From Bifidobacterium aesculapii (GTDB taxonomy: Bacteria > Actinomycetota > Actinomycetes > Actinomycetales > Bifidobacteriaceae), in assembly GCF_001417815.1 (NCBI RefSeq), contig NZ_BCFK01000047.1, positions 1 to 64,000 of the forward strand: a DNA stretch of 64,000 nt. The letters are read 5' to 3'. The position numbers and the translations under genes were made by a program. Positions 17,626 to 59,739 of the stretch are shown here, piece after piece. The notes under the pieces are model-generated. The model saw nothing but the letters and a program-made list of their open reading frames with translations. It did not search any database and had not been told where the DNA came from. The stretch's first letter is position 1. Each line of letters starts with the position of its first letter.

Positions 17626-17645
17626 CACTGGCACGCCAAGCCGTT

Positions 17646-17674: not shown

Positions 17675-17863
17675 TGTTGCAACCCGATGGTTGCGTTGCC
17701 AGAGACGTATGACGCCTTCGGCAACGCGGCGCACGGGGGAGCCGCATCGCATCAGGCCGCGCAACGGGGTATCAGGGCGGCCGGTGGACGTTGTAGCTGG
17801 CATGGGAAGGACGTGCCGGCCGTCGGCGTTGCGGCATCAAGGAAGGAACCAAGGAGGGTTCGC

Positions 17864-31612: not shown

Positions 31613-31646
31613 CGTGTGTATGTCATCTCAAGATGACATACACACG
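31613..31646. promoter_or_regulatory. TGTCATCT palindrome, site a
   Basis: Perfect 16-bp arms (core ATGTCATCT-CA-AGATGACAT) upstream of integrase 2. It matches the palindromes in front of the lasso-peptide and bacteriocin genes 17-20 kb away. Confidence 0.8.
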
Positions 31647-33120: not shown

Positions 33121-33185
33121 GCCTCGCCAATAACAAGATGATGCGATTGCATCTATGCGATACTTCGGGCACAGAAAGGATGACC

Positions 33186-33359
33186 ATGAAAGTAATTACC
33201 TCGGCGTTGCTGATCGTATCATTAACAGCAATCGGAATAATGCCGGAAGGCAATGCCGACGTTATCTCATTGGAAGCATATGACGTTACTACCTATTCAG
33301 TTCGAATGCTTCCGGCCTGTCCTCATTCCATAAATTGGATCTGTCACATCGTGGGATAA
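33186..33359 (+). CDS. Small secreted peptide, function unknown
   Basis: 57 residues; GAAAGGA precedes the ATG at 33186. Residues 1-24 form a signal peptide (MKVITSALLIVSLTAIGI..., A-rich cleavage near GNADV). The mature part is about 32 residues, and its end (LPACPHSINWICHIVG) has two Cys seven residues apart that could form a disulfide loop. No family is recognised. It faces a histidine kinase/response regulator pair and its last 63 bp overlap the kinase end on the other strand. An upstream palindrome links it to the bacteriocin regulon. Candidate pheromone or bacteriocin; this is inference. Confidence 0.5.
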   Translation: MKVITSALLIVSLTAIGIMPEGNADVISLEAYDVTTYSVRMLPACPHSINWICHIVG

Positions 33360-34529
33360 GCTCAGCGGAATTTGTGCATGAAATTGCCATGTGCCGTCTT
33401 CTGAGGAAGTTCTAGTTGTTCCACCCAGCAATTGTATGCGTTTTTCATGCAGCTTTAAACCATTTTCCGATACGGGTTTATCAGGGAACAAGCTATCCGC
33501 TGAAACTTCATTGACCTGGTCAATAGATATTATTAAATCTTTACAACTTATAGAGGTATAATAATCGCTATTGGGTTTCGCATGGGCGGCAGTGTTCGTA
33601 TATAGCTCTTGCAATAGAGACTCTACTTCATCAAAGTAATCGTTGCTGATTTTTTCTGAAAACTCGGAAGGTATATAGGTTTTCCCAGAAAATCCCAGCA
33701 TTGATAAAAATTTATCGCCTTGCTCGGCAATAGATTGAAGGCGTCTGATATACGGCATATCTACATTATTTAGCAATGCAACATCATTGCCGTTCATTAC
33801 ATTAATGGCAATTCGTATTTCTTCCAATGTTTTAACAATCGTTGATCGAAGATTTGAAATCTCTTCTTCGCTGAAGTTGCAATCATGTTTTGCTGATTTG
33901 TTATCCAGCATTATTGCCATGTATGTTAGATTTCCGCTAACCGAATCATGTATCTTACTGACGGCAATATTTTCCTTTCTAACCATTGAAAGATGCTGCT
34001 GAATCTTTTCTGCTTTAAGCTTATCCTTCTCTACTTGATCCGCCAGATTTCTCCAAGATATCGCTCTTCCGATGAAAAATGCCAAAAACATAATGAACAA
34101 AAGCATGACATATTCATCGAACGGAGTCTTTGTTAGACTGAATCTCCACATGCGAATGGCAGAAACTGTCAACGGATAGATTGCTCCATATGGTGGCTTG
34201 ACATATAGTCCAATATAAGCAAGCGCCAACCAAGTTCCCCACAGAAAACTTGGTCCGCTAGTATCTGGTATAAAACAGCCGAAAACAAATGCACCCAACA
34301 GCAGATTGCTGCCTAATAGCGGATGAACGGCCATTAGCGCGATCATCGATATATGAATGATTACCAATAGCCAAGTTATTATTTCCCGTGGTGGATAAGT
34401 CCATGTTTCCGTTATCGTGATAACAATACTGACGACCGGAAGTAAGTGTTGAACATATTTGGTGTTATTGAGAATGAAAGCATTGTGCGCTTTATTGCTG
34501 CTTTTTACTCGTCTTTCTTTTCGAGCCAT
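33297..34529 (-). CDS. HisKA_3-type histidine kinase
   Basis: 410 residues. About six hydrophobic segments (about 26-165), a linker coiled coil, then the HisKA_3-like helix with the acceptor His in SKIHDSVSGNLTYMAIMLD (about residue 194). The ATPase domain is divergent: the N box is in ESLLQELYTNTAAHAKP and no typical G box is seen. Downstream of, and overlapping by 25 bp, its response regulator gene, so co-translated. The gene is AT-rich compared with its surroundings, a sign of transfer. The input is probably an extracellular signal sensed through the membrane part. A decayed relative lies at 15200-15622. Confidence 0.8.
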   Translation of the reverse strand: MARKERRVKSSNKAHNAFILNNTKYVQHLLPVVSIVITITETWTYPPREIITWLLVIIHISMIALMAVHPLLGSNLLLGAFVFGCFIPDTSGPSFLWGTWLALAYIGLYVKPPYGAIYPLTVSAIRMWRFSLTKTPFDEYVMLLFIMFLAFFIGRAISWRNLADQVEKDKLKAEKIQQHLSMVRKENIAVSKIHDSVSGNLTYMAIMLDNKSAKHDCNFSEEEISNLRSTIVKTLEEIRIAINVMNGNDVALLNNVDMPYIRRLQSIAEQGDKFLSMLGFSGKTYIPSEFSEKISNDYFDEVESLLQELYTNTAAHAKPNSDYYTSISCKDLIISIDQVNEVSADSLFPDKPVSENGLKLHEKRIQLLGGTTRTSSEDGTWQFHAQIPLSLSHDVTDPIYGMRTGRKHSN

Positions 34530-35170
34530 TTAATTACCGCCTGCGTTCTGTTCTTGGCGCCTATCTTCTCAACTACGCGCTTGATGTATGTCTTTACGGT
34601 TGGTTCTCCTATGCCAAGCTTCACTCCGATTTCCTTTGATGTATATCCTAACGCGCATAGATTCATGACCTCTTCCTCTCTTCTGGTGAGGTTCTTATAC
34701 CGGCGTTTGGGGCTGTCCTCTATGGATAGTCTCGCGTAGGCTTCCTGCGCGGTTTCCGATGACTCGTATTTCACATGAGGTGATTGTCCGTTGGCCAATA
34801 GGCACACGGCTTGACAGACATCACGCACCTGCGCCTTGTCCATCAAACACGCTGCCCCGTTCTCCAGAGCCTGTACGTAGTATCTCTCTAGGGAGAAAGC
34901 GGTTATGCCGATCAGCACGATTTGCGGTGTTTTGGAGCGGATGGCCCGGCATACCTCATAGCCGGTCATGTCTTCCAAGGACATGTCCACCAGCAGTACG
35001 TCGGGCTGCGTTTTCTTATCCAGGCATTTGTCGATAGCCGTTTTGCCCTTCGCCGCCGTCCAATGTATTTCAGCGAATGGCAGAAGCTGCTTGATCATTA
35101 GCTTCATCATGCCAAGTGTGAGTTTGTCGTTATCGACAATGGCGATTCTGATTCGTTTCCCTAGGTACAT
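34505..35170 (-). CDS. NarL/LuxR-family response regulator
   Basis: 221 residues. Receiver domain with acidic pocket in IAIVDNDK and phospho-acceptor Asp in DVLLVDMSLEDMTGY (about residue 62); the conserved Thr/Lys positions are seen as GITAF and MDKAQ. C-terminal LuxR HTH (about 155-215): LTRREEEVMNLCALGYTSKEIGVKLGIGEPTVKTYI in pieces. It is first gene of the pair with the kinase. Possible reader of the TGTCATCT palindromes, together with or instead of the regulator at 51786; sequence alone cannot decide which. Confidence 0.88.
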   Translation of the reverse strand: MYLGKRIRIAIVDNDKLTLGMMKLMIKQLLPFAEIHWTAAKGKTAIDKCLDKKTQPDVLLVDMSLEDMTGYEVCRAIRSKTPQIVLIGITAFSLERYYVQALENGAACLMDKAQVRDVCQAVCLLANGQSPHVKYESSETAQEAYARLSIEDSPKRRYKNLTRREEEVMNLCALGYTSKEIGVKLGIGEPTVKTYIKRVVEKIGAKNRTQAVIKWLEKKDE

Positions 35171-43473: not shown

Positions 43474-44799
43474 ATGAACAACACCACACGCGCAGCCATA
43501 GCCACGGCCGCCATCGGAGCCCTGCTCATCCCGCTCGCGGGATGCGGCAACACGACCACAAGCTCGGGCAAGACCGAACTGACGGTATGGTCATGGGACG
43601 CCAGCATCGATCGCGCCGCCAAAAACTTCATGAAGGCCAACCCCGACATCACGGTGAAGGTGAGCAACGTCGGCAGCACCGAGGAGACCTACACCGCGCT
43701 CAACAACGCGGCCCAGGCCGGCAACGGCCTGCCCGACGTCACCCTGATCGAATACCTCGCCATCCCGCAGTTCGTGCACTCCGGCACGCTCATGGACCTG
43801 AGCAAGATCTACGACACCGTCAAGCTCAAGGACACGTTCACCCCCGGCACCTGGAGCTCCGTGAACATCAACGGCGGCCTGTACGCGATGCCCGCCGACT
43901 CGGGCCCGATGGCCTACTTCTACGACAAGGACGTGTTCGACAAGGCCGGCATCAGCGAACCGCCGACCACCTGGGACGAGTTCTACGAGGACGCAAAGAA
44001 GATCCGCGCCACCGGCTCCTACATCACCTCCGACTCCGGCGACGCGGGCCTGTTCAACGCGATGATGTGGGCCATGGGCGGCCACGCCTACAAACTCAAC
44101 GACGAAAAACTGACCATCAATATCACCAAGGACAAGGGCGCCCAGCGGTTCATGGACCTCTGGCAGAAGATGCGTGACGAGGACCTGATCGACGTCCACA
44201 CGAAGACCTGGACCGACGACTGGATGAAGTCACTGGGCGACAGCTCCATCGCCAGCCTCATCAGCGGCGCATGGATGGCCAACAACCTCCTGCAGGGCGT
44301 GCCCCAAGCCACCGGCAAATTCCGCGTAGCCCTCCTGCCCACCATCGACGGCACGCCCATCAACGGCGAATACGGCGGCAGCGGACTGGCCATCACCAAG
44401 AAGATCCCCGACGGCAAACTCGACGCCGCCAAAAAGTTCGTCGAATACGTCACCACCAACGACGAAGGCATCGACGCCCGCGTATCCAACGGCAGCTTCC
44501 CCGCCACCACCAAGACCCTCAACCAGAAGGACTTCCTCGCCAAGACCACGCTCAGAAACGCCGACGGCAGCGACAACGAGTTCTTCGGCGGCCAGAAATA
44601 CAACGAGGTCTTCTCCCAGGCCGCCAAGGACGTCACCGGCAAATGGGAGTTCCTGCCCTTCGAACCCTATGCCCGCTCCATCTACAACGACAATATGGGA
44701 TCATTCTTCTCCGGCAAGGAGACTTTCAAGGCTGCCGCTGACAAGTGGCAAAAGGCGCTGAAACTCTACGCCGAAGATCAAGGTTTCATCATCCATTGA
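43474..44799 (+). CDS. Orphan ABC sugar solute-binding lipoprotein
   Basis: 441 residues, family 1 solute-binding protein with lipobox PLAGCGN (Cys about residue 24). Similar in build to the protein at 39339 but divergent in sequence (ELTVWSWDASIDRAAKNFMK at the N-terminus). AAAGAAG precedes the ATG. No permease genes follow; a terminator and the convergent bacteriocin ABC gene come next. It could feed the permeases at 37524-39331 or be left over from a lost importer. Divergent from the ROK repressor. Confidence 0.9.
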   Translation: MNNTTRAAIATAAIGALLIPLAGCGNTTTSSGKTELTVWSWDASIDRAAKNFMKANPDITVKVSNVGSTEETYTALNNAAQAGNGLPDVTLIEYLAIPQFVHSGTLMDLSKIYDTVKLKDTFTPGTWSSVNINGGLYAMPADSGPMAYFYDKDVFDKAGISEPPTTWDEFYEDAKKIRATGSYITSDSGDAGLFNAMMWAMGGHAYKLNDEKLTINITKDKGAQRFMDLWQKMRDEDLIDVHTKTWTDDWMKSLGDSSIASLISGAWMANNLLQGVPQATGKFRVALLPTIDGTPINGEYGGSGLAITKKIPDGKLDAAKKFVEYVTTNDEGIDARVSNGSFPATTKTLNQKDFLAKTTLRNADGSDNEFFGGQKYNEVFSQAAKDVTGKWEFLPFEPYARSIYNDNMGSFFSGKETFKAAADKWQKALKLYAEDQGFIIH

Positions 44800-44856: not shown

Positions 44857-44897
44857 TTTAGTATTCCTCCCGTTATTATAACGGGAGGAATACTAAA
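44857..44897. terminator. Bidirectional terminator between sugar and bacteriocin genes
   Basis: Perfect 19-bp stem with TTA loop and flanking T/A runs. It includes the stop codon of the ABC ATPase gene on the minus strand. Confidence 0.88.
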
Positions 44898-45567
44898 GTT
44901 GGATGCTCCAGTCGCATGATTCGACTACGTGGTCGGAGTGGGTGGCGATGATGACGATGCCGCCGTTGCCGGCCATGTCGCGCAGGGTGTGGATGACCAT
45001 GTCGGCGTTGTCGTGGTCGAGAGCACCGGTAGGTTCGTCGGCGAGAATGACTTCAGGTTGTTTGACGATGAGGCGCGCCAGTGCGACGCGTTGTTGTTCA
45101 CCGCCGGAGAGCTGGTAGACCAGCTCCCTTTGGCGGTCGGCCAGACCGACCCGTTGCAGGGCGTGGGAGATGGTGGTCTTCCTTACCCGTGACGGGAGGT
45201 GTGGCAGGGCGACGTTCAGGTTTTCCTCGATGGTGGCGTTGTCGATGAGCGCGTAGTCCTGGAACAGATAGCCCAGGGTGTGTTTGCGGAACATTCGCGC
45301 GCCGTGCGCGTGGTATCGGGTGATGTCTCTCCCGTTCACTTCTATCGCGCCGCCGTCCGGCTTCTCCAAGAGGCCGATGCAGTTCAGCAGTGTGCTCTTG
45401 CCGGATCCGGATGGTCCGGTGAGAGCGATCATCTGTCCCGAATGGGCCGAGAATCCGAGGTCCTTCCACAGCAGGTGATCGCCGAAGGATTTGGACAGGC
45501 CCCGGACGTCAAGCCGTGTGCTCACCGGCGTGCGATCGGGCATGTGGCCGGATAATGCGGTGGTCAT
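44893..45567 (-). CDS. ABC ATPase of lactococcin-972-type bacteriocin system
   Basis: 224 residues, MacB/LolD-like. Walker A in [11 protein letters not shown], signature [13 protein letters not shown], Walker [13 protein letters not shown] loop IIATHSDH. Starts 3 bp after the stop of the membrane protein and so forms one unit with it. In lactococcin 972 loci this ATPase pairs with the large membrane protein for export of, or immunity to, the bacteriocin. Confidence 0.9.
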
Positions 45568-45570
45568 CGT

Positions 45571-47634
45571 TTACTCCTCCCTAGCATGGTTTCGGACGTT
45601 GCCGCGCACGTATGCGGCGGTGGACAGCAGGCAGACCGCGAGACTTGTCATGGCGATCAGGACGGCGATGAGCGGCTGATACCCGTCGAGCAGCAGCGGA
45701 TTGTTCTGAGCGTACGAGACGGTGGACCGGCGCGCGGCCAGAACGGCCTGCGACACGAACCATATGGACGGAATGATCGCCAGTATCGATTCGACGATGA
45801 CTAGGCTCAGATGGGTTCTCGCGAAGGACCATCCGTGGATGTACCGGGCGAAGATGGTCTGGGCTCGCTCGCGGACCCTGATTCGGGCGATGGCCACGGC
45901 CGAGGCGATGAGGACGACGGCCGACATCATGACGTTGTACCCGTGGACGACCAGATCCGATCTGAGCTGCGCGTAATGCGTCGCGGCATTCTGCCCGGCA
46001 TCGCTTACGGCAAGGATGAAGTCCTCCAGACCCGCCTGCCTTGAGGACGTGATCGCGTACTGCGCGTCATCCAGCAGTGCATCGCCCTGGCTGGCATACG
46101 CCGCGTAATCGTCGAAGGACAACAGTCCGCTGCCGTTGTCGACCACAACAATCAGCGCGTCATCGAACAAGGTGGGCGTGTCGGGCAGGGCTGACCCGTA
46201 GCCGAATAGCCGCTGGCCCCGCTCGCCGCGCACATAGTCGATCTCGGGAACCGGAACGCCGTAGGCCGACGCATGGGATCGCGCCCAGCTGTCGATCGCT
46301 TTCTCGTACGCTTTCACGGCCGCCGCGTCCGCATCATACGGGATCACCACCTTCACCGCCTTGGAGCCGGATGTCAGGCGACGCCCCTTGTCATCCCTGA
46401 CCGTCTGGTGTCGCAGATAGTTGCCATTGACCAGCAGCACCGTGCTGGACGCTGTCTCCCCGTCGCCCTCAGTGGGCGCCATGAACCGCAGGTCGTCCTC
46501 ATGGGCCAGAATCATCCGCCCCTCGTCTTCGGCGTGTTCCAGCCATTCGCCGGTCCTGCGACTGTACGCGTCCTGCTCGTCCGTCGACATGTTCGGATTG
46601 AGATGCACCTGCGCCACATCGCCGGCGCCCCGCCACGCCTCCTGGGCCTGCCACTGGTTGCGCATATTCCCCACGGCGGTGAACAACAACGTCACCGACC
46701 ATATGGTGATGAATATCGCCGGAATGCGCACGCAGTACACCGCGATGGAAGGCAGTCTGCGGGGTAGCCGCCCCTTGACCGCGGACAACAGGGGCTGCGC
46801 GGCCGCGATTATGAATCCCACTCCATAGGCGATTGCCAGACCCACGCATATGGTTAGGAAGATCGCGGCCGAGAGCATGCCGAACAGGCCCCACTGGGCC
46901 CCATGGTTGTGCGCTGCCACCAGAGAGCAAGCCACAATGCTGATAACGCATGCCCCCAACATGCAGGAAACCGCATTGGCCTTGACATCCCGGGCCACCA
47001 TCATCAACGGGCCTGAACCTTGAAGCCGCTGCACCGCGTATCCCTTCGCGTTCATCAGGGAGAAACCGCCCGCCAACGTCGCACACAACAGCAGCACGAC
47101 GACCAGTCCCACCCCGACGGGCCTCGACATGACCCATTGCGCATACGAACCGACGAAACTCGTCTTGACAAGGACCCGGTACCCCTGGGACTGCAGTTTC
47201 TGCTGCAGGTCGACGGCCGAAGCGGCGGGCCCGTCGAACACGTAATACGTTCCCCGCGGATCGGAAGTGGCCAACTCATCCATCCGGCCGACTACAGTCC
47301 GCATCGAGACGTTGAACGACGGATACCCGTGCCCGATCCACGAAGCGGCGTCACCGGCAGGATTGCCGACCGCGACATACAAGTGTCTAGCACCACCGGG
47401 ATCCCGCACATCGGCGACGCTTTTGACGATATTGACCCTGTCCGCCAGCGCCACCTCGGATATCACACCGACCGTCGCCTCGCTCCTGACCTGCGGTGAC
47501 GGCCCCGATACCTGCACAGTGGCCCGTACCATAAGAGGCCCCGACAGATCCAGCGCGTTCAACAGCAGAAACGAACCCAACATTGCGGCAAACGCCGCAA
47601 TCCACACCGCCAGACGAATGGACCCGCTGCGCAT
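45571..47634 (-). CDS. Bacteriocin-associated integral membrane protein (972 group)
   Basis: 687 residues from MRSGSIRLAVWIAAF; GAGGAGG lies 5 nt upstream, which decides the start. One N-terminal helix, a large outside loop, three to four central helices (about 180-300: VGLVVVLLLCATLAGGFSL etc.), another outside domain, and three C-terminal helices. This layout matches the seven-helix putative immunity proteins always found with lactococcin 972 bacteriocins. Together with the ATPase gene it forms a MacB-like ABC complex thought to protect the producer. Confidence 0.85.
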   Translation of the reverse strand: MRSGSIRLAVWIAAFAAMLGSFLLLNALDLSGPLMVRATVQVSGPSPQVRSEATVGVISEVALADRVNIVKSVADVRDPGGARHLYVAVGNPAGDAASWIGHGYPSFNVSMRTVVGRMDELATSDPRGTYYVFDGPAASAVDLQQKLQSQGYRVLVKTSFVGSYAQWVMSRPVGVGLVVVLLLCATLAGGFSLMNAKGYAVQRLQGSGPLMMVARDVKANAVSCMLGACVISIVACSLVAAHNHGAQWGLFGMLSAAIFLTICVGLAIAYGVGFIIAAAQPLLSAVKGRLPRRLPSIAVYCVRIPAIFITIWSVTLLFTAVGNMRNQWQAQEAWRGAGDVAQVHLNPNMSTDEQDAYSRRTGEWLEHAEDEGRMILAHEDDLRFMAPTEGDGETASSTVLLVNGNYLRHQTVRDDKGRRLTSGSKAVKVVIPYDADAAAVKAYEKAIDSWARSHASAYGVPVPEIDYVRGERGQRLFGYGSALPDTPTLFDDALIVVVDNGSGLLSFDDYAAYASQGDALLDDAQYAITSSRQAGLEDFILAVSDAGQNAATHYAQLRSDLVVHGYNVMMSAVVLIASAVAIARIRVRERAQTIFARYIHGWSFARTHLSLVIVESILAIIPSIWFVSQAVLAARRSTVSYAQNNPLLLDGYQPLIAVLIAMTSLAVCLLSTAAYVRGNVRNHAREE

Positions 47635-47697
47635 GGCACCCTCCTCAAACTCATTAAAGGTGATGCCGTTTTGCGGCATCACCTAATCAATTCTCGA

Positions 47698-48015
47698 TTA
47701 GCAATATCTCCAATATGCCTGATCGATTCGAAGGGGATTGCTGTCATAAGCAGTCGCGGTAGACCACTGCTTCTTCACTGCGCATTCTGACCGGACAAGT
47801 CCGACATCACCGGTTACACTGGAACCGTGAAGAGCAGATGGATGACGATAGTTTGACCAGTTATAGCCTTCACCGAAATCCATGATTCCGTAGTTCCAAG
47901 TTCCACCACCGGCAGGTACGACAGCCGCCATTGCTGTCCCGGTGGCTCCCAGAGATAGTCCTGCCGCTAGAACGATAGCAGCCATTGCTTTGACACGTCG
48001 ATGTTTATCGGTCAT
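47698..48015 (-). CDS. Lactococcin-972-family bacteriocin precursor
   Basis: 105 residues. Signal peptide to about residue 31 (AGLSLGATGTAMA|A). Mature part starts VVPAGGGTWNYG and contains NWSNYRHPSALHGSSV, the family core, and ends with RIDQAYWRYC. Members bind lipid II and block septum formation in related bacteria. GAAAGGG precedes the ATG. The membrane protein and ATPase genes follow in the same direction, giving a complete three-gene locus. Two TGTCATCT-like half-palindromes lie 95-150 bp upstream. Confidence 0.9.
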   Translation of the reverse strand: MTDKHRRVKAMAAIVLAAGLSLGATGTAMAAVVPAGGGTWNYGIMDFGEGYNWSNYRHPSALHGSSVTGDVGLVRSECAVKKQWSTATAYDSNPLRIDQAYWRYC

Positions 48016-48110
48016 CTTTGACCCTTTCTATAGTAGGCCGAATTCTTTTCGACTCCGTAAGAACTATTGTCCTAAGCGAGAATGCGACGGGCAATGACGA
48101 GCAAGCTCGT

Positions 48111-48164
48111 TGACATCTGGAGATGACATGAAGCCCCCAATCTCGCTATCTTGAGATGACAAAT
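48111..48164. promoter_or_regulatory. TGTCATCT palindromes, sites c1 and c2
   Basis: c1 is TTGACATCT-GG-AGATGACAT (48111-48130). c2 is CTATCT-TG-AGATGACAAA (48148-48164), with only the right half conserved. Both are upstream of the lactococcin-972-type gene on the minus strand. Confidence 0.6.
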
Positions 48165-48230: not shown

Positions 48231-48656
48231 TCATTGATTCTTTCGTGCAGAGCTAGATCTGGTGATGATGTATTGTCCGATGGCATCAGGTTCGCCGATG
48301 GGTGTGCCGTTGACTTCGACCCAGGCGTGTGCGCGAAAGGGACGATCGGTGAATCCGGTGCACCATGTGACGGATCGGTGAGATATGCGGCATGCCGCCG
48401 CTGTGGAGAGAGACCGAAGCAGACAACCCTGCTGGCTGCGGCATCTGCGGCTTACCGCACATACGGCGTTGCGGTAACGCTTCGCCATGTCGGCATCGGC
48501 TGGCGGATACCGTTCGGACCACGTTTCAAGCTGACGGCAAAACTCTCCGATTCGTTGTCGTTCCATCTGTCTTCCGATAATGATGGCAATCAGCGCCACC
48601 AGGCGGTCGTGAAAGTTGACTCGTGTGATTGCTTCCGGCTGTAGAGGGATGCTCAT
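48231..48656 (-). CDS. Lasso peptide leader protease B2
   Basis: 141 residues, transglutaminase-like cysteine protease of McjB C-terminal type. Catalytic Cys in QQGCLLRSLSTAAA (about residue 78) and His in PFRAHAWVEVNG (about residue 109), followed by the Asp region GEPDAIGQY. Cuts the leader off the lasso precursor before ring closure. ATGA overlap with B1 shows coupling. Length is normal for split B2 proteins of actinobacteria. Confidence 0.88.
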   Translation of the reverse strand: MSIPLQPEAITRVNFHDRLVALIAIIIGRQMERQRIGEFCRQLETWSERYPPADADMAKRYRNAVCAVSRRCRSQQGCLLRSLSTAAACRISHRSVTWCTGFTDRPFRAHAWVEVNGTPIGEPDAIGQYIITRSSSARKNQ

Positions 48657-48925
48657 AAACGCACGTGCTTCCCCATATCGGCGAGAAATCGTTCCGTATC
48701 CCGGACGATGATTTGTCTGTCAGCCCGATATTCTTCGGCGATTTCATTCGTGCAATCCTCGACGGTTTTGCCGTGCATCAGACCGTCGAGGATGATTCGG
48801 CCTATTTCGTTGATCTGCAGGTATTCGCCGGTGTCGTTGACGAATACGATTGCCCCTCCCTCTTTGGGATACAGAGATATCTGGTCCTTCAGGCTGGTGT
48901 TCGCCATCGTGTCATCGGTTTGCAT
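48653..48925 (-). CDS. Lasso peptide RiPP recognition protein B1 (PqqD-like)
   Basis: 90 residues; a second in-frame start (MANTSLKDQ) at 48907 is possible. The winged-helix RRE fold is visible: EGGAIVFVNDTGEYLQINEIGRIILDGLMHG, then a helix pair with TVEDCTNEIAEEYRAD. Binds the precursor leader and presents it to B2. Start overlaps the end of the C gene by 14 bp. Confidence 0.88.
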   Translation of the reverse strand: MQTDDTMANTSLKDQISLYPKEGGAIVFVNDTGEYLQINEIGRIILDGLMHGKTVEDCTNEIAEEYRADRQIIVRDTERFLADMGKHVRL

Positions 48926-50501
48926 GTCTTAGCCACCTTTCCACTGCCGCGACTCGTTGCATTTCGAACAGAAACGTGATGTCAGGCATCGGCATGGAAG
49001 CTCGACGCCGTATGGCTGGCATATCGATCAATCCTTCTTCGTCCAGCTCTCCACCGGTGATTGAGTTGAGCAGCGAGTCCTTCGAGCGTTGCCAGGCCAG
49101 ATACAGTGAATATGAGTGATCGCCTTTGACGGGACGCCGGAATATCGTTTCGGGGACTATGCCTTTGAGTGCCCGGTACAATACGGCTTTGTGTAGATTT
49201 CCTTCGGTGCGTGCACTGATTGGGGCGCATAGCGCATAGTCCGCGATCCCATGGTCCAGGTAGGGGGAGCGGAACGTTATGTCGTCAGAGGCGAACGTCC
49301 GATTAACCTGATTGAGCATTCGTGCCTGCATTGACAGAGAATAGAGCGCCTGATGACGGCTTCGGTCGGGGCTCAATGGCCGAATGTCGGCGTGTTTGAA
49401 TTGTGATTCAATAGCGCTATATAGGATATCCCTGGCTTTTGTGGTCAGGAATTCGGGAATGAGTATGACATCGTGCCATCCACAAGGCGAGGAGCGATGG
49501 TTATGACCTTGTTCCGCGTCCAGGAACGATGACCGTAATTCCTCATACAGATCGGTGTTATCGGTCAGATCGAGAATTGCCTGATGGGGTGGGATTCGGT
49601 AATCGGCGCTGTATTGTCTTCGGATGTCTCGTAGTCGCAGTGGGTGTTCCCGCAGGCAGCTCCAAGATGAGGATGGCATAGATGCGAACAGCTCGTCTCC
49701 TCCGAAACCTGTGACATGGATACGGCTTGTGCCTGCCTCCATTTCGGAGATTCGGCTGAGATAGCCTTCGATATCGCTCCAGTAGATCGGTTCTTCAGGT
49801 ATCTCGTTGTTGGGGTATTCGGCTGCGGGTTCGAATGATCTGTTTCCATCCACGACTCGGCCGACTTTGATGAGTGGCATCCGAACGTCCTCGGAGATTC
49901 GCTCGGCCCATTGGGAATCCTGATTCATTGGATCGTCGGGTGTTTCATGATACAGGGGCATACGAACCCCCTCGCTGGCGAAGATGTATGTGATGGCGGC
50001 GGAATCCACTCCTCCGGACACATCGGCGGATAGTAGTGCCTCATTGCGCCACTCATCCGCGATCGTCAGGAAACTGCTCCTTAGCGATGCCAGAATTGCG
50101 CCGTTTGAAACATGTTTTATGGGTGAAGGTTCCGCTCTCGTATATCGCGGCCTATTGGATTTGTCGAGGTGCAGTATGGTTGCGACAGGTATGGAATGTA
50201 CGTTCCTCCATGGGGATTTGTCCCCTCGTAGGCTGTCAGGGAGCGAAGGCAGCAGATCCATGACAATGCGTTCTAGGTCAAGATCGGCGTTCGTGATGCT
50301 TGCAAGTCGGGAGGCGCTGTCCGACAGGAGCACTTCATCTTCGGAGACGATCCAGAACATGCGATCGCCACTCAGCAGAGGAACTTGGACGCATGTTCCC
50401 TCGTCATTGATGCTGATGGAGGCGGGAAGCTTCGAACAGTCCGTTGGCTTCCCGCCGCGGACAATCACGGTACGGTTTGGGTTCTTATACGTAAACGGCA
50501 T
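48912..50501 (-). CDS. Lasso peptide cyclase C (asparagine-synthetase-like)
   Basis: 529 residues. Activates the side-chain carboxyl of the ring residue with ATP and forms the macrolactam. N-terminal glutaminase-like domain without catalytic Cys; synthetase domain with PP-loop SADVSGGVDSAAI (about 165-177), HVTGFGGDELFAS and RSPYLDHGIADYAL. AGGGAAACGTG lies upstream; a GTG at 50504 is the alternative start. It follows the precursor gene by 54 bp, and overlaps B1. Confidence 0.9.
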   Translation of the reverse strand: MPFTYKNPNRTVIVRGGKPTDCSKLPASISINDEGTCVQVPLLSGDRMFWIVSEDEVLLSDSASRLASITNADLDLERIVMDLLPSLPDSLRGDKSPWRNVHSIPVATILHLDKSNRPRYTRAEPSPIKHVSNGAILASLRSSFLTIADEWRNEALLSADVSGGVDSAAITYIFASEGVRMPLYHETPDDPMNQDSQWAERISEDVRMPLIKVGRVVDGNRSFEPAAEYPNNEIPEEPIYWSDIEGYLSRISEMEAGTSRIHVTGFGGDELFASMPSSSWSCLREHPLRLRDIRRQYSADYRIPPHQAILDLTDNTDLYEELRSSFLDAEQGHNHRSSPCGWHDVILIPEFLTTKARDILYSAIESQFKHADIRPLSPDRSRHQALYSLSMQARMLNQVNRTFASDDITFRSPYLDHGIADYALCAPISARTEGNLHKAVLYRALKGIVPETIFRRPVKGDHSYSLYLAWQRSKDSLLNSITGGELDEEGLIDMPAIRRRASMPMPDITFLFEMQRVAAVERWLRHANR

Positions 50502-50555
50502 CACGTTTCCCTATCCTGATACAGCTAGGGATCATCAATATATGCAGGGTTTCGG

Positions 50556-50684
50556 TCAGTTCGATCCCCAAGGGAACGGGGCCTTGGCGCCGCCAACATC
50601 GACATAGTTGCCGAACCATACGCCATTGGTTGCTTCCTTGAATGATGCGATGACCTCAACGGCAGGAGGCACATAATCCTTCAT
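50556..50684 (-). CDS. Lasso peptide precursor A
   Basis: 42 residues; GAGGAG 7-8 nt before the ATG decides this start in a longer open frame. Leader 1-20: Tyr4 and Pro7 in DYVPPAV form the YxxP recognition motif for B1, Phe15 follows, and Thr sits at position -2 (EATN|G), all hallmarks of lasso leaders. Core 21-42 starts GVWFGNYVD and ends PFPWGSN: Gly1 and Asp9 can form a nine-residue macrolactam ring, leaving a 13-residue tail with Lys, Phe and Trp that could act as steric plugs. It is directly upstream of the cyclase gene. A 21-bp-arm palindrome lies before its promoter. Confidence 0.9.
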   Translation of the reverse strand: MKDYVPPAVEVIASFKEATNGVWFGNYVDVGGAKAPFPWGSN

Positions 50685-50774: not shown

Positions 50775-50820
50775 ATGTGTTTGGTGTTTGTCATCTTCGG
50801 ATGACAAACACCAAACACAT
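50775..50820. promoter_or_regulatory. TGTCATCT palindrome, site d
   Basis: Perfect 21-bp arms around TTCG (core GGTGTTTGTCATC). It lies between the ABC ATPase stop and the precursor gene promoter. It may be both an activator site and a terminator-like hairpin, but there is no T run. Confidence 0.85.
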
Positions 50821-50856: not shown

Positions 50857-51540
50857 TCAGTCTTCCTTCCAGAGTTGGCCGCGGGAACCCTCTTTTACCA
50901 CGGTGCCTTTATCCAGTACCACAACATCATCGGTAATCGGCTTCAGCTTGCCGTCCGGTTCGGATGCGATGAGCACCGCAACGCCACGATTTGTCTGCTT
51001 CCGTATCTGCTCGCAGATCCAATTCGTGCCCGATTGATCGAGTGCCTGGAGCGGTTCATCTACGATCAGGGCTTTGGGATTGGGAAGCAGAGCTATGGCG
51101 AATCGCATTTTGAGGACATCGATTGGAGCGAGATCGTGGAGCTTGACGGTGAGAAGATTCTGCAGTTCGGTCATGTGAATAATCCCGTCAAGAAGCGAAT
51201 CAGACGTTCCGGCCCAGAACGCCTTCCAACGAAGATAGGTTCCGACCGAGTAATACGGGGATAGTGAAATGGCTTCGGGCATTGCATTCACAACGTTTTT
51301 GGGTATACGGGATGTGCCACAGGGTTTGCCACAGGTGTATATGCATCCGGAATCCGGGATATCCAGTCCCAACAGCATCCGGAGAACAGTTGTTTTGCCG
51401 GCGTCATGTGGCCCCATCAGAACGGTGACTCGACCTGCATAGGCGGCAAATGTGATCCCATGCAATTCGCGACCGGCATGATTGAATGAGACGTTCTCAA
51501 ACGCAATGATGGGTGAAGCCGAATCGGGCAGCTGGCACAT
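50857..51540 (-). CDS. ABC ATPase of lasso cluster, degenerate signature
   Basis: 227 residues from MCQLPDSAS; AAAGGA lies upstream. Walker A in VLMGPHDAGKTTV, Walker B in ALIVDEPLQAL. The signature LSGGQ is replaced by LAPIDVLKMRFA, and the H-loop His by Glu (LIASEPDG). No membrane partner gene is in the cluster, unlike usual lasso D proteins that fuse both parts. Role in export or immunity is likely from position only. A frame open back to an ATG at 51684 would add 48 residues across a G10 tract. Confidence 0.8.
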   Translation of the reverse strand: MCQLPDSASPIIAFENVSFNHAGRELHGITFAAYAGRVTVLMGPHDAGKTTVLRMLLGLDIPDSGCIYTCGKPCGTSRIPKNVVNAMPEAISLSPYYSVGTYLRWKAFWAGTSDSLLDGIIHMTELQNLLTVKLHDLAPIDVLKMRFAIALLPNPKALIVDEPLQALDQSGTNWICEQIRKQTNRGVAVLIASEPDGKLKPITDDVVVLDKGTVVKEGSRGQLWKED

Positions 51541-51583: not shown

Positions 51584-51593
51584 CCCCCCCCCC
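51584..51593 (-). repeat. G10 homopolymer in leader of lasso ABC gene
   Basis: Ten C on the plus strand (G10 in the mRNA), 43 bp before the ABC ATG and within the possible 48-codon N-terminal extension. Runs of this length are prone to slippage. Confidence 0.85.
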
Positions 51594-51721: not shown

Positions 51722-51763
51722 GATTGTGGTGTTTGTCATCTGAAGATGACAAACACCACAATC
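51722..51763. promoter_or_regulatory. TGTCATCT palindrome, site e
   Basis: Perfect 20-bp arms around GA. It shares GGTGTTTGTCATCT with site d. Located between the response regulator stop and the ABC ATPase gene, upstream of the latter. Confidence 0.85.
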
Positions 51764-51785: not shown

Positions 51786-52493
51786 TTATGCTGGTTTGCT
51801 GCCTGTTATTTGGTCCAGCCCCGATTGATACCAAGCTATGGCGATTTGGACTCGGTCCCGCATGTGCATTCTGGCCAATATGCGGCTTACCGTGCGTCGT
51901 ACCGATGTCGTTTCGATGAATAGGCGCTCCGCGATTTCCTGATTGGACAAGCCTGCCGCCACGAGTTCCGCGACTTCATGTTCCCGCTTGGAAAGTCCGT
52001 CGAATAGGCTTCGTAGCAGCTTGATGCGGGTGTTGTCCGATATGGGCCGAACCCCGCGATTGAGTACTTCACCGGTGATTCTCGGTGTCAATACCGCATC
52101 TCCGTTATGCACGGCGTGTACGGCGTCACGTAGCTGTTTGGGGGTCGCATCCTTGAGCAGGAATCCGGATGCCCCTCGCGCCAATCCGTCGAAGGCGTAA
52201 TCGTCCTCATCGTATGTGGTCAGGATCAGTATCTGGATTTGGGGGAATTGCTCCTTGATGATGCCCGTCGCCTCTATGCCGTCCATGACGGGCATGCGCA
52301 CGTCCATCAGAATCACGTCAGGCAGTTGCTGCGGTGATTGCCGTAGGAACTCGATTGCTTGGGCGCCGTCCACGGCCTGGGAGCTGACGATGATGTTCGG
52401 ATCGTTGTTCAGCATCATCATGAAGCCGGTGCGCGCCCCTCGCATGTCATCGACCAGCATGACCTTGATGATGTCGTCTCTTGCATCCTTCAT
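51786..52493 (-). CDS. NarL-family response regulator of bacteriocin island
   Basis: 235 residues. Receiver with IKVMLVDDMRGARTG, phospho-acceptor Asp in VILMDVRMPVMDGIEATG (about residue 60), GASGFLLKD. C-terminal HTH (about 165-225) with LSKREHEVAELVAAGLSNQEIAERLF in pieces. Directly after the kinase gene (16 bp). Best candidate regulator for the palindromes in front of ABC, precursor, bacteriocin and its own kinase gene. Confidence 0.92.
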   Translation of the reverse strand: MKDARDDIIKVMLVDDMRGARTGFMMMLNNDPNIIVSSQAVDGAQAIEFLRQSPQQLPDVILMDVRMPVMDGIEATGIIKEQFPQIQILILTTYDEDDYAFDGLARGASGFLLKDATPKQLRDAVHAVHNGDAVLTPRITGEVLNRGVRPISDNTRIKLLRSLFDGLSKREHEVAELVAAGLSNQEIAERLFIETTSVRRTVSRILARMHMRDRVQIAIAWYQSGLDQITGSKPA

Positions 52494-52509: not shown

Positions 52510-53835
52510 TCAGGGGATTAGTGCCTTGACCGCCCAGCCATTGCCGTATGGCCCATAGGACAGGGTGCCGCCCATTTTCGCAAGGCGTTGGGAGAGCCGT
52601 TGCAGTCCGGTTCCACCTGTCGGCTTCCTGCTTTGACCGGATGCCTCGCCGGTGGTGTCGTGTCCGGAGACGTGTCCATCGTTGCGGATCGTGATTGCTG
52701 TTCCGCCATCACGGTAATGATTCCAGGAGACGGCAATGCGGGTCAGTCCCGCGCCGTGCCGAAGGGCATTGGTCAGTGCCTCGCGAGTGACGGCGAAGCA
52801 TAAATCCGAACGGCGGGGGTCCTCGACGCGTCTTCCCGTTTCGGTGAACACGACGATGATTCCGGTTGAGCGTATGTGTTCCAGTACGGGTCTGATATCG
52901 TCCCAATCCCGTAAACGCAGGATGTCATCCTGATTCACTGGGTCAAGACCGACCTGTTCCAAAGACGGCTGCGATTCCTCTTCATTGAAGACCTTTAGTA
53001 TACGGCGCGTATCGGTCAGACTGTCCTTCGCAATCGATGTGATCTCTGCTAAGACATCAGCCAGTTGCGAAGCGGAATAGCCGCCATTCCTTATGCAGTC
53101 CTCACCTCCCTGCGATAACGCGATAATCGAGGTCAATCCATGACCGACACTGTCATGCAGCTCGTTGGCCATGCGAAGGCGCCGTTCCGTACGATTCTTT
53201 TCCTCCGCCAGCATTGCGGTCTTTCGCCGTGCCTCGGACAGCAGCCTATTCGACGTTCGCCGTTCCCACGCTATGGACAACAGTGAGGATGCGATGCCGG
53301 CCAAAGCGACGGAGTACAGTAACGCCAAATATTGAGGCTGCAGATAGGAGGGATAGATGTATTGCATTGCGATCATGCAGATCATGGCCAGATCGCACAT
53401 GGCCTGAACATACAAAGGAAGCCGAATGCACAGATAAAGCACCAAGATAAGCGCGACCTGCGTGTATGAGTGCAGACCAACGCCGAACAGGACGCCCAGA
53501 GAGAGCTCAATGAATTCCAAGGCCAGCAACGCCACGGGGCTTCTGGACCTTAACGTCACGTTTATGGCTCCCAAAACTAGCAGTATAAGGAAGTACCATA
53601 TTCCCGCTCCCTCGTTGAGGAACCGGATAAACGAATATCCTGTGCCGATTGCCATCCGCTCTTTCACATAATCGCGGATCAGCACGCCCATCGTGCCAAC
53701 GATGCAGATCAGAGTCGTCGTGAAACGAAGCAGGCGTTCCCCTTTGAGCTGACGAAGCCATAGGATCAATCGATCCCGCGGGGTGACGGCTAACGTTTGT
53801 CTCCCATCTGATGACTTACCCCGGCGTGAGCCCAT
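52510..53835 (-). CDS. HisKA_3 histidine kinase of bacteriocin island
   Basis: 441 residues from MGSRRGKSS; GAGGAA lies upstream, while the frame-opening codon at 53862 is GTG. About six hydrophobic segments (about 38-190), then acceptor His in MANELHDSVGHGLTSIIAL (about residue 225). ATPase domain: TREALTNALRHG (N box), TIRNDGHVSG, GGTGLQRLSQRLAKMGG (G box). Typical partner of NarL-type regulators. First gene of the pair. Site f and a GATAAT box (53901-53906) lie upstream. Confidence 0.9.
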   Translation of the reverse strand: MGSRRGKSSDGRQTLAVTPRDRLILWLRQLKGERLLRFTTTLICIVGTMGVLIRDYVKERMAIGTGYSFIRFLNEGAGIWYFLILLVLGAINVTLRSRSPVALLALEFIELSLGVLFGVGLHSYTQVALILVLYLCIRLPLYVQAMCDLAMICMIAMQYIYPSYLQPQYLALLYSVALAGIASSLLSIAWERRTSNRLLSEARRKTAMLAEEKNRTERRLRMANELHDSVGHGLTSIIALSQGGEDCIRNGGYSASQLADVLAEITSIAKDSLTDTRRILKVFNEEESQPSLEQVGLDPVNQDDILRLRDWDDIRPVLEHIRSTGIIVVFTETGRRVEDPRRSDLCFAVTREALTNALRHGAGLTRIAVSWNHYRDGGTAITIRNDGHVSGHDTTGEASGQSRKPTGGTGLQRLSQRLAKMGGTLSYGPYGNGWAVKALIP

Positions 53836-53944
53836 AATGAGATGGTTCCTCGCAACCTGCACCTTACGCCTTCTTCGTTGTCCGAGAATACAGCTTTCCC
53901 ATTATCTACGATTTGAGGCTCGCATGTCCATGACTGGGCTCCTG

Positions 53945-53964
53945 TTTGACATCTACGGATGACA
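53945..53964. promoter_or_regulatory. TGTCATCT palindrome, site f
   Basis: TTTGACATC-TACG-GATGACA upstream of the kinase gene. With c1 it shares the TTGACATC variant of the left half, suggesting autoregulation of the two-component system. Confidence 0.6.
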
Positions 53965-54348
53965 GTAACTTATCGCGGACTTCCCTCTCCGCTTGCGGAG
54001 AGAATGCTCCAGGCGGGGCTGTTCGACATACTCTCCGCAATCGGCGCGGGAACGCGGCCCCGGTCCATGCGCTGCGCGCATGACCGTGCTGTCTGGCCGC
54101 TCGCATGCTCGCGGCGGTGGGCCGCGCGGAATCTGACGAGGGGTTTGCGGCCACCACCAGCATGCCATGCGCTCCGTCTGCGTTCCCTGCGCCGTGTCCC
54201 GCGCCGCTCCCGTGCCTGCGCTGCGACGGCGGACCAGCATGCCGTCTTCGCTACTGCCCGGATCGTCGCGGTCCACGCCTCCGGTCTCTCCGCCTGCGCG
54301 CATGGCAGGCGGGTGGTGTCCGAAATGGAAACCACACGGAAAGGACCG
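53965..54348. other. Gap between bacteriocin island and mobile element
   Basis: No convincing gene. A CTCTCCGCTTGCGGAGAG hairpin lies near 53985. Open frames on both strands show no domain and biased composition only. This is the likely left boundary zone of the conjugative element. Confidence 0.4.
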
Positions 54349-55060: not shown

Positions 55061-56620
55061 ATGGAAACCGCAATCATCGAACGTCCCGTATCGGCCGACG
55101 AAGGCATGGAGGAATCGAACATCGTCATGCTGGACGTGGGACTTATCGATCCGAACCCCGCGAACCCGCGCCGCGACGTGGGCGATGTGTCGGAACTCGC
55201 GGATTCGATACGCGCGCAGGGCATCCGGCAAAACCTGCTCGTCACTCCCACGCCGCAGGGACGCTACCTGCTCGTCATCGGGCATCGCCGCCTCGCCGCC
55301 GCCAAACTCGCCGGATTGAGCCGGGTACCCGCCGTGGTGGCCGATTTGTCGGAACGGGAGCAACGCGAGCTCATGCTCGTGGAGAACAGCCAGCGCGCCG
55401 ACCTGACCGTCATCGAGGAGGCCGACGGCTATCAGGGGCTTCTCGATTTGGGCGTGGGCGTGGACGAGGCAGCGCAACGCACCGGCCGTTCCACGTCATT
55501 GGTGCGCCGACGCCTGAAGATAGCCGCCATCGGCGAGAACGCGCGAAGCAAGGCCGGAACGGCCCAGCTGAGCATCGACGACTGGGAGACCATCGCCGAC
55601 TTCGACCGGCATCCAGACCTTCAGGAACGGCTCGCCGAGGCGGCAGGCGGCAAGAACTGGAACATGGCCGTCAAGCACGCCCGGCAGGAGCGAACATGGC
55701 GCGAATGGCTCGACACGGCGCGAGCCGAATTGGAACGCATGGGCATCGACGCGGCCGACGAACAGCCGAACACGGACAACTGGTATGACTCGCCAAAGGG
55801 ATTGCGTCGCACCACGATGCTGACCACGGGCGACATCGCCAAGGCCATCGACGCATGGCGCGACTCCCATGACGGAGCCACGCCCGTCGTTGGAGTGCGG
55901 GCCGAAGGCGCGTCATGGGCGCGCGGCATCGCCCTGTACGAAACCGTGGACGAGGAGGCCGAGACCGCGGCCCGCGAGGCGCGTGAGGCGCGTTGGCGCG
56001 AGGAACGGGAACGCGAGGAACGCGAGACGGCACCGGCCAAGGAGTTCGCGCGGGCAAGCCGTGATTTGCGCATCGCGTTCGTGACGCATCTCATGGAACT
56101 GAAATCCCAGCCGAAGGGCATCGGCAAAGCCGTCGCCCTGCTGTCCGCGAGATTCGCGCTCGATACGCTCACCGAGGGATTCGACCAATGGAACAGTCAT
56201 GCCGAGGACGTCTGGGAGCAAATCACCGGCATCGGCACGGCGGGCGACGACGCCGATGATGCAAAGCCGGAGGACGAGGCCGAAGACCCGTTACGCGAGT
56301 CCGTCACCGCGATGATTGCCGGCGACCCGCAACGGGCCGCGTTCGGACTGCTCTACGCCTTGGCCGAAGAGCGCGTCAGCTGGGAAACGTGGCGTGACGC
56401 GGCGACCATCGCGGAACACGCCGCACCGTTGTACGAGGCGTTGGAAACACTCGGCTACCGCACCTCGGACACGGAAGCCGAAGCCCTCAACGGCTCCCTC
56501 GTACCAATCGATGACGACGACAATGGCGAGGATACCGGCATAGGGCAGGACAGCGAACCGGACGACGATGGGGCGTCGCAAGCCGACGACGCATCCGGCG
56601 AGCCGGACGACGCCGAATAA
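55061..56620 (+). CDS. ParB/RepB-like partition protein
   Basis: 519 residues. N-terminal ParB nuclease-like domain: IDPNPANPRRDVGDVSELADSIRAQGIRQNLLV, VIGHRRLAAAKLAG, and ENSQRADLTVIEEA, with an HTH-like part after it (GVDEAAQRTGRSTSLVRRRLK). The long C-terminal region is acidic and carries a charged helix (about 310-330) and a Glu/Asp tail. Unlike chromosomal ParB it has no ParA neighbour, so it is probably an element-encoded regulator or stabiliser. AAGGAG lies before the ATG. Confidence 0.85.
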   Translation: METAIIERPVSADEGMEESNIVMLDVGLIDPNPANPRRDVGDVSELADSIRAQGIRQNLLVTPTPQGRYLLVIGHRRLAAAKLAGLSRVPAVVADLSEREQRELMLVENSQRADLTVIEEADGYQGLLDLGVGVDEAAQRTGRSTSLVRRRLKIAAIGENARSKAGTAQLSIDDWETIADFDRHPDLQERLAEAAGGKNWNMAVKHARQERTWREWLDTARAELERMGIDAADEQPNTDNWYDSPKGLRRTTMLTTGDIAKAIDAWRDSHDGATPVVGVRAEGASWARGIALYETVDEEAETAAREAREARWREEREREERETAPAKEFARASRDLRIAFVTHLMELKSQPKGIGKAVALLSARFALDTLTEGFDQWNSHAEDVWEQITGIGTAGDDADDAKPEDEAEDPLRESVTAMIAGDPQRAAFGLLYALAEERVSWETWRDAATIAEHAAPLYEALETLGYRTSDTEAEALNGSLVPIDDDDNGEDTGIGQDSEPDDDGASQADDASGEPDDAE

Positions 56621-57892: not shown

Positions 57893-58297
57893 ATGGGTTG
57901 GAAAGGCAACCGTTCCAGGACGATCCGCAAGGCGGTCACGTTCAGCGAGGAGGAATGGCGGTGGGTGGCGGACTCGCTCAAAGTGGAGAACCGTCAGCGC
58001 ATCCAGGCCGGGCTCAGGCCCGTGGGATGGATGGCGTTCGCCCGCAACAGGATCAGATGCGCCCACCGCGTCAACATCACCGTGCCCGCGAACCTGCATG
58101 ACGTGAGCGCCCAACTGGCGAGGATCGGCAACAACGTCAACCAGATCGCCCGTCACGCGAACACCACGCGGGAGACGGACCTGGCCATGCTCTCGCGCGT
58201 GTTCGACGAGCTGCGCCAGGCGGAACGGCTGGTCGCGGGCCTGCGCATCCGGGTGGAGACCGACGTTGACCCCAAAGGGGTGCCCGAATGGCTGTAG
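57893..58297 (+). CDS. MobC-like relaxosome accessory protein
   Basis: 134 residues. VTFSEEEWRWVADSL and the C-terminal half NLHDVSAQLARIGNNVNQIARHAN are typical of MobC/plasmid mobilization proteins, with the latter the hallmark RIGNNVNQIAR motif. Helps the relaxase melt oriT. GAGGAGGCGCC upstream. Overlaps the relaxase start by 10 bp. Confidence 0.85.
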   Translation: MGWKGNRSRTIRKAVTFSEEEWRWVADSLKVENRQRIQAGLRPVGWMAFARNRIRCAHRVNITVPANLHDVSAQLARIGNNVNQIARHANTTRETDLAMLSRVFDELRQAERLVAGLRIRVETDVDPKGVPEWL

Positions 58298-59739
58298 TCA
58301 AGATCGGCAAGATCAAAAGCACGCTTGCCCGCAGCATCGCCTACGTGACGAACCCGGCCAAGACCGACGGCTACCGGTGGGCCTCGACCACCGTCGGCGA
58401 TGACATCACGGACGCCGAGTCCATCGCCCGAGGCTTCGAATGTGCGTTGGACGCCACGAAAGGCGGCTCACGCCGGCAGGGGGCCGTGTTGGCGCTGCAC
58501 GTGATCCAATCGTTCGATCCCACCGACCAGGTCACGCCCCGATTGGCGCATCTGATCGGGGAACGGTTCGTCCGGGAGATCACCGGAGGCACGCACGACT
58601 ACGTGATTGCCACCCACACCGACAGATCCCACATGCACAACCACATCCTCATCTGCCCGGCAGACCGGATCACGGGCAAGGCCCTGCGTCTGAGGAAAGG
58701 AACCCTGGGCGAATGGCGGAAGATCAGCGACCGGCTATGCCGCGAATACGGGCTGCACACCCTCATGCCGGAACGGTCCGGGCGCGTGGCCCCGTCGATC
58801 GGGGAACTCCATCTGAGCGCCAGAGGCGGCAACATCAAGGACCGGTTGCGCACCAGCATCGACACGGCCTGCATGAACGCCCATGACTTCGCGGGCTTCC
58901 GCCGCGAACTCGCGACGCTCGGCGTCAACGCGACCGTGCGCGGCGGACGCATCACCTACACGCCATGCGGGCAGACCCGCGGAATCCGAGACCGGCGACT
59001 GGGCGTGGCATACAACATGCTCGCCATCATGGGCAAGATCCACCGGCGCACGCTCAGCGAGATCACCTTCCACGAGGCCATGATCGCCCGTCGGACGGAT
59101 ACGGCGGTGACCGTTCGGGTGCCCGGCACGCACGGACGCCTGCGCCTGTCCATACCGTGCGACCGGCTCGTGCGTGACGGAAGGATCTGGCACGCCTACC
59201 TGTCCGACGACGTCAGACAGGTGCTCACCGACGAGAACGGCGGCTATGCACGTTCAACGGACTGCGAGGGCCTGTACGCATGGTTCGCGCGGCCCACGCT
59301 GCGACTGGAGGACTACTGCCGTCAACGGTTCGACGGCCGGGACCTGACCGGCGTGAACGGGCGCGCGCTGCGTCAGGCAATCGCCTGCGACCGGCTCGCC
59401 GACAGCCTGCGCGAGCTCAAGGTGCTCGCCCAGGTCATCGACGAAGGCGACGGCCGGCTGGCGACGCTCGGCCGACTCACCGACTCCGTCGAACTCAACG
59501 CGAAGCACATGCGCGCCCTGATCGCGCTCATCGCCGACAACCATGATCAGGGAGCCGACGCCACGGGACTGGAGGCCCAGCTCGCCATCGAGGAGCAAGA
59601 GACCCGTGGCCTGGCCTCCGACGCCCTCGCCCTGCGCCGGCTCATCGCCCGCACCACGCCAACCGCCGAACGCTCCGACGGCGCACGGCGCGCGCAACGC
59701 CGCGATGGCGGGCATCGTGTCCGCCGCAGGAACCGGTGA
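58288..59739 (+). CDS. MOBP-type relaxase
   Basis: 483 residues. Catalytic Tyr is likely in SIAYVTNPAKT (about residue 19). Metal-binding histidines in YVIATHTDRSHMHNHILI (HxxxxHxHxH). Nicks oriT and leads the strand into the recipient. Domain covers about residues 1-220; the rest is charged and helical and ends in a strongly basic tail RVRRRNR. Translationally coupled with MobC. Confidence 0.92.
   Translation: MAVVKIGKIKSTLARSIAYVTNPAKTDGYRWASTTVGDDITDAESIARGFECALDATKGGSRRQGAVLALHVIQSFDPTDQVTPRLAHLIGERFVREITGGTHDYVIATHTDRSHMHNHILICPADRITGKALRLRKGTLGEWRKISDRLCREYGLHTLMPERSGRVAPSIGELHLSARGGNIKDRLRTSIDTACMNAHDFAGFRRELATLGVNATVRGGRITYTPCGQTRGIRDRRLGVAYNMLAIMGKIHRRTLSEITFHEAMIARRTDTAVTVRVPGTHGRLRLSIPCDRLVRDGRIWHAYLSDDVRQVLTDENGGYARSTDCEGLYAWFARPTLRLEDYCRQRFDGRDLTGVNGRALRQAIACDRLADSLRELKVLAQVIDEGDGRLATLGRLTDSVELNAKHMRALIALIADNHDQGADATGLEAQLAIEEQETRGLASDALALRRLIARTTPTAERSDGARRAQRRDGGHRVRRRNR

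Follow-up and report, generated by a model that had tools for sequence, protein, structure and literature searches.

The gene at positions 50556–50684 (minus strand) in the 64,000-nucleotide stretch of Bifidobacterium aesculapii DNA analysed here (the window) is, from the agreement of its leader, its core, and the adjacent cyclase, RRE-type, and B2 genes, a lasso peptide precursor gene. It very probably encodes a class II precursor, lacking cysteine, which, along with the enzymes that mature it, would be the bacteriocin cargo of a putative mobilisable or conjugative island of bifidobacteria. By sequence comparison the lasso family gains a new member, whose core has no close counterpart among 55 published ones and which lacks the exporter found in its relatives.

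The precursor gene

Translation of the gene gives MKDYVPPAVEVIASFKEATN as the leader (50625–50684) followed by GVWFGNYVDVGGAKAPFPWGSN as the core (50559–50624), 42 amino acids in all, and a stop codon. A sequence-only reading had placed a 42-residue gene here within an over-long ORF, and this is confirmed: the frame remains open beyond the gene, with an 83-amino-acid ORF from a TTG and 112 codons open in total. The proposed start, ATG 50684, is preceded by a good Shine–Dalgarno sequence, GAGGAGAAC. The same reading had pointed to a YxxP motif and a threonine at −2 in the leader, which are found as YVPP (Y4 to P7) and Thr19, making residue 21 the first of the core (Gly1). Its suggestion that the 22-residue core could close a ring between Gly1 and Asp9 also holds; Asp9 is the sole acidic residue of the core, therefore Gly1–Asp9 is the only classical ring possible. 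Rings of this type, Gly1–Asp9, are present in propeptin and RES-701-1.

The precursor passes the NCBIfam lasso_leader_L3 model (NF033521) with 20.8 bits against a cut-off of 19. When start codons opening peptides of 30–80 amino acids were screened across the window for YxxP, threonine at −2, Gly, Ala, Ser, or Cys at core position 1, and Asp or Glu at positions 7–9, with lasso-like leader and core lengths, only two of 1623 fitted, both being nested starts of this gene. Together with the adjacent maturation genes, this supports the identification as a lasso precursor that the earlier reading had proposed. A search of the PDB with the precursor found no match.

Maturation enzymes

As had been read from the sequence, the gene order on the minus strand is A-C-B1-B2, with C, B1, and B2 overlapping slightly. 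The cyclase C (48912–50504, 530 amino acids) is asparagine-synthetase-like, matching PF00733 over the cut-off (84.4 bits) and containing SGGVDS and GGDELF stretches; it also matches the NCBIfam typed lasso cyclase models NF033561 and NF033535, both below cut-off. B1 (48653–48925) is a PqqD-like RRE leader-binding protein, with PF05402 over the cut-off, 43.7 bits against the PqqD model NF033530 (below its cut-off of 70), and a match to TfuB1 (6jx3; E 3.5e-5). Matches of B1 to designed beta-trefoils in the PDB, some scoring above TfuB1, were taken as chance. The leader peptidase B2 (48231–48656) is transglutaminase-like (PF13471) and reaches 79.9 bits with NF033537 (cut-off 33). The usual catalytic set of B2 proteins is Cys-His-Asp. 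Here the Cys and His are conserved with the B2 of Streptococcus salivarius, and an acidic residue near the domain end is not clearly aligned. In the PDB there was no match for B2 at E 0.1 and none for C at E 0.01. Separate B1 and B2 proteins are likewise found in the split-B systems with solved B1 structures (TfuB1, 6jx3, and TbiB1, 5v1u), and the B1 described here matches both.

By analogy with the lasso family, from which cutting, cyclisation, threading, and an antibacterial role are carried over, B1 would bind the YVPP-containing leader and B2 would cut after Asn20, with the threonine at −2. C would then activate Asp9 and link it to the amino group of Gly1. The predicted product would have a nine-residue ring, presumably closed by the Gly1–Asp9 bond, with the 13-residue tail threaded through it and held by a putative aromatic plug of Phe17 and/or Trp19. 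Its expected monoisotopic mass is 2306.0908, with a computed [M+2H]2+ of 1154.0527. The product is probably a lasso peptide with an antimicrobial role, and the adjacent kinase and regulator probably control its expression through the palindromes described below.

Comparison with known lasso peptides

Comparison of the core with published ones had been advised in the earlier reading. A table in PMC12427821 gives 62 cores, of which 55 were compared; Astexin-1 (non-standard letter) and the near-duplicates Lariatin A, Lariocidin B, Moomysin, RP 71955, Siamycin I, and Specialicin were left out. No close relative of GVWFGNYVDVGGAKAPFPWGSN was found among these 55. The highest scores went to BI-32169, RES-701-1, and Actinokineosin and were reached by 23, 114, and 131 of 500 shuffles, respectively; Benenodin-1 scored lower, its score being reached by 10 of 500. 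A precursor on the S. salivarius plasmid pSsal-YU10 (GLWTGNFRDVFGGRAIVRVKIEF) scores 33.5, against 16.5 for the best of these 55, and no shuffle among 500 reaches this; on these scores it is the nearest relative.

The predicted lasso cluster of pSsal-YU10 (NZ_MN480763.1) has the same A-C-B1-B2 order, with a PqqD protein present and a two-component system alongside. Its ring, GLWTGNFRD, is identical to GVWFGNYVD of B. aesculapii at five of nine positions including Asp9, the cyclases are 27.5% identical over 93%, and the B2 proteins are 37% identical. It differs in that B2 is fused to the exporter, the tail is another one, and the ATPase there has two membrane partners. A second lasso-precursor-like peptide, beginning GLVAGRFRDIFGG (core GLVAGRFRDIFGGRALFLIRI), is encoded ahead of the annotated precursor on this plasmid (L037, 5170 onward) and is not among the genes listed in the PLSDB gene table.

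The same table (PMC12427821) lists propeptin from Microbispora and RES-701-1, class II cores in which residue 9 is Asp, as here. RES-701-1 shares G1, W3, G5, and D9 with the B. aesculapii core, the tail and other ring residues being different. A propeptin-type peptide, acting by protease inhibition instead of killing, might be suggested by RDVFGG behind the ring of the streptococcal relative, which resembles YRDLFGG in propeptin, and by a B. bifidum lasso cluster that BAGEL calls Propeptin_2-like, according to PMC13368793. However, the B. aesculapii core shares only three of nine ring residues with propeptin, a score that 177 of 500 shuffles equal, the remaining ring residues differ, and the tail, GGAKAPFPWGSN, is unlike that of propeptin. 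This interpretation is therefore improbable, and an antimicrobial lasso peptide remains preferred.

Within the genus, lasso predictions for B. bifidum strains are in print in two papers (PMC13368793, PMC10171061), therefore the B. aesculapii cluster is not the first; these predicted peptides are of the same class and occur in certain strains only. In a table from a 2016 survey, no lasso cluster is listed for 31 Bifidobacterium genomes (PMC4786598). A literature search, largely of titles and abstracts, found no experimentally shown bifidobacterial lasso peptide, and a literature text search with six core strings gave no match.

Distribution and probable transfer between species

Near-identical precursors (95–100% identity) are present in nine of 189 Bifidobacteriaceae genomes, all of one genus: B. 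aesculapii, B. myosotis, B. callitrichidarum, B. hapali, B. miconis, B. moraviense, B. callitrichos, B. vespertilionis, and B. reuteri. The core is identical in eight of the nine loci, B. vespertilionis having Ser for Pro18, whereas divergence among the four cyclases that were aligned reaches 9%. Searching the 189 genomes with the B2 model NF033537 gave matches in 11, nine of these being the precursor-bearing loci (79–85 bits); the other two are a stop-containing fragment in another genus (38 bits, cut-off 33) and one below the cut-off. At the level of species representatives this cluster is therefore nearly the only lasso locus of the Bifidobacteriaceae, and the earlier remark that lasso peptides are few in bifidobacteria holds at that level.

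More widely, five further precursor matches in 394 genomes of the class (E 0.005–0.04) were not accepted. Four were taken as chance on the one ground that they lie in open frames of 1089–1130 codons, and the fifth occupies a frame of 146 codons, with no lasso-like gene recognised by eye among the longer ORFs around it. Four distant cyclase relatives (24–27% identity) were found in 396 genomes of the phylum, and candidate precursors beside them do not have the shared ring.

Across A to B2, DNA identity with B. aesculapii is 100% in B. callitrichidarum and 99.96% in both B. myosotis and B. hapali, whereas lysS is 90%, 90%, and 85% identical, respectively. In B. miconis the values are 98.97% and 90%. 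The other four carriers have 94.6–94.9% identity in A to B2 and 89–93% in lysS, the excess there being small. The MobA/VirD2-type relaxase (58288–59739, plus strand; PF03432), the ParB-like gene (55061–56620, plus strand; PF02195), and the regulators are beside the cluster in all nine copies. Identity far above that of lysS in three species, combined with these accompanying genes, points to interspecies transfer, and the cluster probably sits on a mobile island that several species of bifidobacteria have in common. Since the cyclase of B. hapali shows a gap of one base and that of B. reuteri matches only to residue 522 of 530, decay or misassembly may affect some of the copies.

The exporter

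An exporter D is usual in lasso peptide clusters and is not defining for them. In B. moraviense, B. reuteri, B. callitrichos, and B. vespertilionis a fused ABC exporter (ABC_membrane and ABC_tran) directly follows B2, with an overlap of four bases as read in B. moraviense. Its identity to the exporter portion of the B2-ABC fusion in S. salivarius is 41%, and it is therefore probably the cognate transporter. Behind D is a lanthipeptide synthetase with RamC_N, kinase, and LanC domains and then an S9 peptidase (domains scanned in B. callitrichos, where the two occupy L020 14469–18999); the other three D carriers have the same arrangement, the synthetase frame being interrupted in B. reuteri (L019).

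In the 20-kb stretches searched, D is absent after B2 in the five remaining copies, those of B. aesculapii, B. callitrichidarum, B. hapali, B. myosotis, and B. miconis. Its position is held by a lactococcin 972-like module in the first four, and in B. miconis the next gene is sugar-binding-protein-like, on the opposite strand, and by eye resembles window positions 43474–44799. A whole-genome search of B. aesculapii for D gave a best full-length match of 31%, with shorter pieces up to 38%.

With the probable transporter gone from its place in five copies, only a lone ATPase left beside the B. aesculapii cluster, and a gap in the cyclase of B. hapali, the locus could be silent or dying in B. aesculapii, with no peptide exported. 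This is a real possibility, but not the expected one: in four of the five genomes without D at this place, the frames of A, C, B1, and B2 are intact and their identity is 99–100%. In addition, two ABC systems adjoin the cluster and 13 D-like matches are present in the B. aesculapii genome (E up to 1e-20), therefore another exporter could serve.

Neighbouring genes

Downstream of the cluster in B. aesculapii, on the minus strand, the lactococcin 972 module consists of a bacteriocin precursor (47698–48015; PF09683, with TIGR01653 over the cut-off), a bacteriocin-associated membrane protein (45571–47682; TIGR01654 below cut-off and no Pfam match), and an ABC ATPase (44893–45567; PF00005, with TIGR03608 below cut-off). 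On the other side, also on the minus strand, are a lone ABC ATP-binding subunit (50857–51540; PF00005) with no permease gene seen beside it, a NarL/LuxR-type response regulator (51786–52493; PF00072 and PF00196), and a histidine kinase that by eye is membrane-bound (52510–53862; PF07730). The lone ATPase is 34% identical to the ATPase of the S. salivarius cluster. Its best NCBIfam match is NodI-like and below cut-off, and the second best, to the lantibiotic protection model TIGR03740 (68.6 bits), is far below.

Upstream of this ABC gene is a tract of poly-C on the plus strand (51584–51593), poly-G on the coding strand, of 10 bases here and of 8–12 bases across the nine otherwise nearly identical copies. 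The length may vary by strand slippage, and homopolymer assembly errors are possible. A start at the upstream ATG 51684, which would place the tract inside the coding region, was set aside in favour of ATG 51540, since the upstream frame is broken in five of the nine copies.

Elsewhere in the window, a 3026-residue multidomain protein (17555–26635) has an LPXTG-like C-terminal end and by eye is perhaps a cell-wall glycosidase.

A palindrome shared across the probable island

A palindrome, TTTGTCATC-N4-GATGACAAA, occurs twice exactly in the window and at two further sites with 2–3 mismatches, 0.01 being expected for all four. One exact copy, at 50787–50808, lies 102 bp ahead of A and forms the middle of an inverted repeat whose arms measure 21 bp; the other, at 51732–51753, lies 191 bp ahead of the ABC gene and has arms of 19 bp. 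The two inexact sites are at 53945–53966 (three mismatches), 82 bp before the kinase gene and just upstream of a promoter-like site, and at 31619–31640 (two mismatches), 93 bp before the integrase ATG at 31734. Eight sites have four mismatches or fewer. Five of these have no more than three, a quality of match absent from five simulated sequences. The other three have four, as did 0–2 sites in the simulations, and they include two weak sites at 48109–48163 upstream of the lactococcin 972-like bacteriocin. One of the eight is inside the kinase gene; the remaining seven stand ahead of lasso A, the ABC gene, the kinase gene, the lactococcin 972-like gene (two sites), the gene of a small secreted-looking peptide, or that of the integrase. 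Promoter-like sites near the palindromes hardly exceed chance, with 8 against 5.3 expected.

In the 2.69 Mb genome, TGTCAT-N5–8-ATGACA has five copies, all on contigs 47 and 48, and none in a reversed control. Among 112 genomes of the genus, 13 contain exact palindromes. Each of the nine with the cluster has 3–4, for a total of 30, of which 29 are on the cluster contig and the other is on contig 48 of B. aesculapii. The remaining four genomes, which have no lasso island, contain one each and no regulator above 48% identity (mostly over partial length), which counts against a strict regulator–operator pair. In B. callitrichos there are sites 83 and 143 bp upstream of the lanthipeptide synthetase, 82 bp upstream of the kinase, 106 bp upstream of the integrase, and 261 bp upstream of a lactococcin 972-like gene; two others there have no clear target gene (L088 14028, two mismatches; L020 18998, four mismatches).

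Some of these features would also be expected if the palindromes were merely long transcription terminators, not operators. The 51732 hairpin, scored as terminator-like, lies after the stop of the regulator gene and has a T-rich tail, the 50787 palindrome lies after the ABC gene, one exact copy is at the end of a coupling-protein-like gene, and the outer arms vary in sequence yet remain complementary. Against this, a 22-bp core is common to the sites, those of the kinase and integrase are not immediately behind a gene end, and the exact copies are almost confined to island contigs. The distance from site to start is also 82–106 bp for the kinase, lasso A, lactococcin 972-like, integrase, and (in B. 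callitrichos) lanthipeptide synthetase genes; values outside this range are 58 bp for the small peptide, 191 bp for the ABC gene, and 261 bp for one lactococcin 972-like gene. Terminators alone are thus a less than probable explanation, though one to be taken seriously.

Being shared across island genes and nearly exclusive to the cluster contig, the palindromes suggest an island-wide bacteriocin regulon, of which they would be putative operators. It is tentatively proposed, short of being probable, that one two-component system of the island, through this single palindromic operator, switches on the integrase and unrelated bacteriocins (the lasso peptide, the lactococcin 972-like peptides, and in relatives the RamC-type lanthipeptide), and that slippage in the poly-G tract before the gene of the ABC ATPase, which perhaps belongs to an immunity pump, would render part of this phase-variable.

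Two other peptides were noted beside such sites. A small secreted-looking ORF (33180–33359, ending TTYSVRMLPACPHSINWICHIVG) has the palindrome variant TTGTCAT-N7-ATGACAA 58 bp upstream, and its 3′ end overlaps the end of a second kinase gene (33297–34529; regulator 34505–35170); it is possibly a second bacteriocin or a signal peptide. On contig 48 of B. aesculapii (L022 150–644), an exact palindrome precedes a gene for a secreted-looking peptide that matches nothing in Pfam; the genes that follow are, by eye, transporter-like. This module recurs in two genomes that lack the lasso cluster (L068 and L069), where it stands behind a coupling-protein-like gene.

Implications

The A-C-B1-B2 genes form a compact set that could be expressed as it stands in a laboratory host. 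The cluster is common to bifidobacteria whose host animals are primates and a bat, and so bears on the mutual exclusion of gut commensals. The shared palindrome poses the question of whether several bacteriocins and an integrase are under one regulator; if this is true, attack on competitors and DNA transfer would be induced together.
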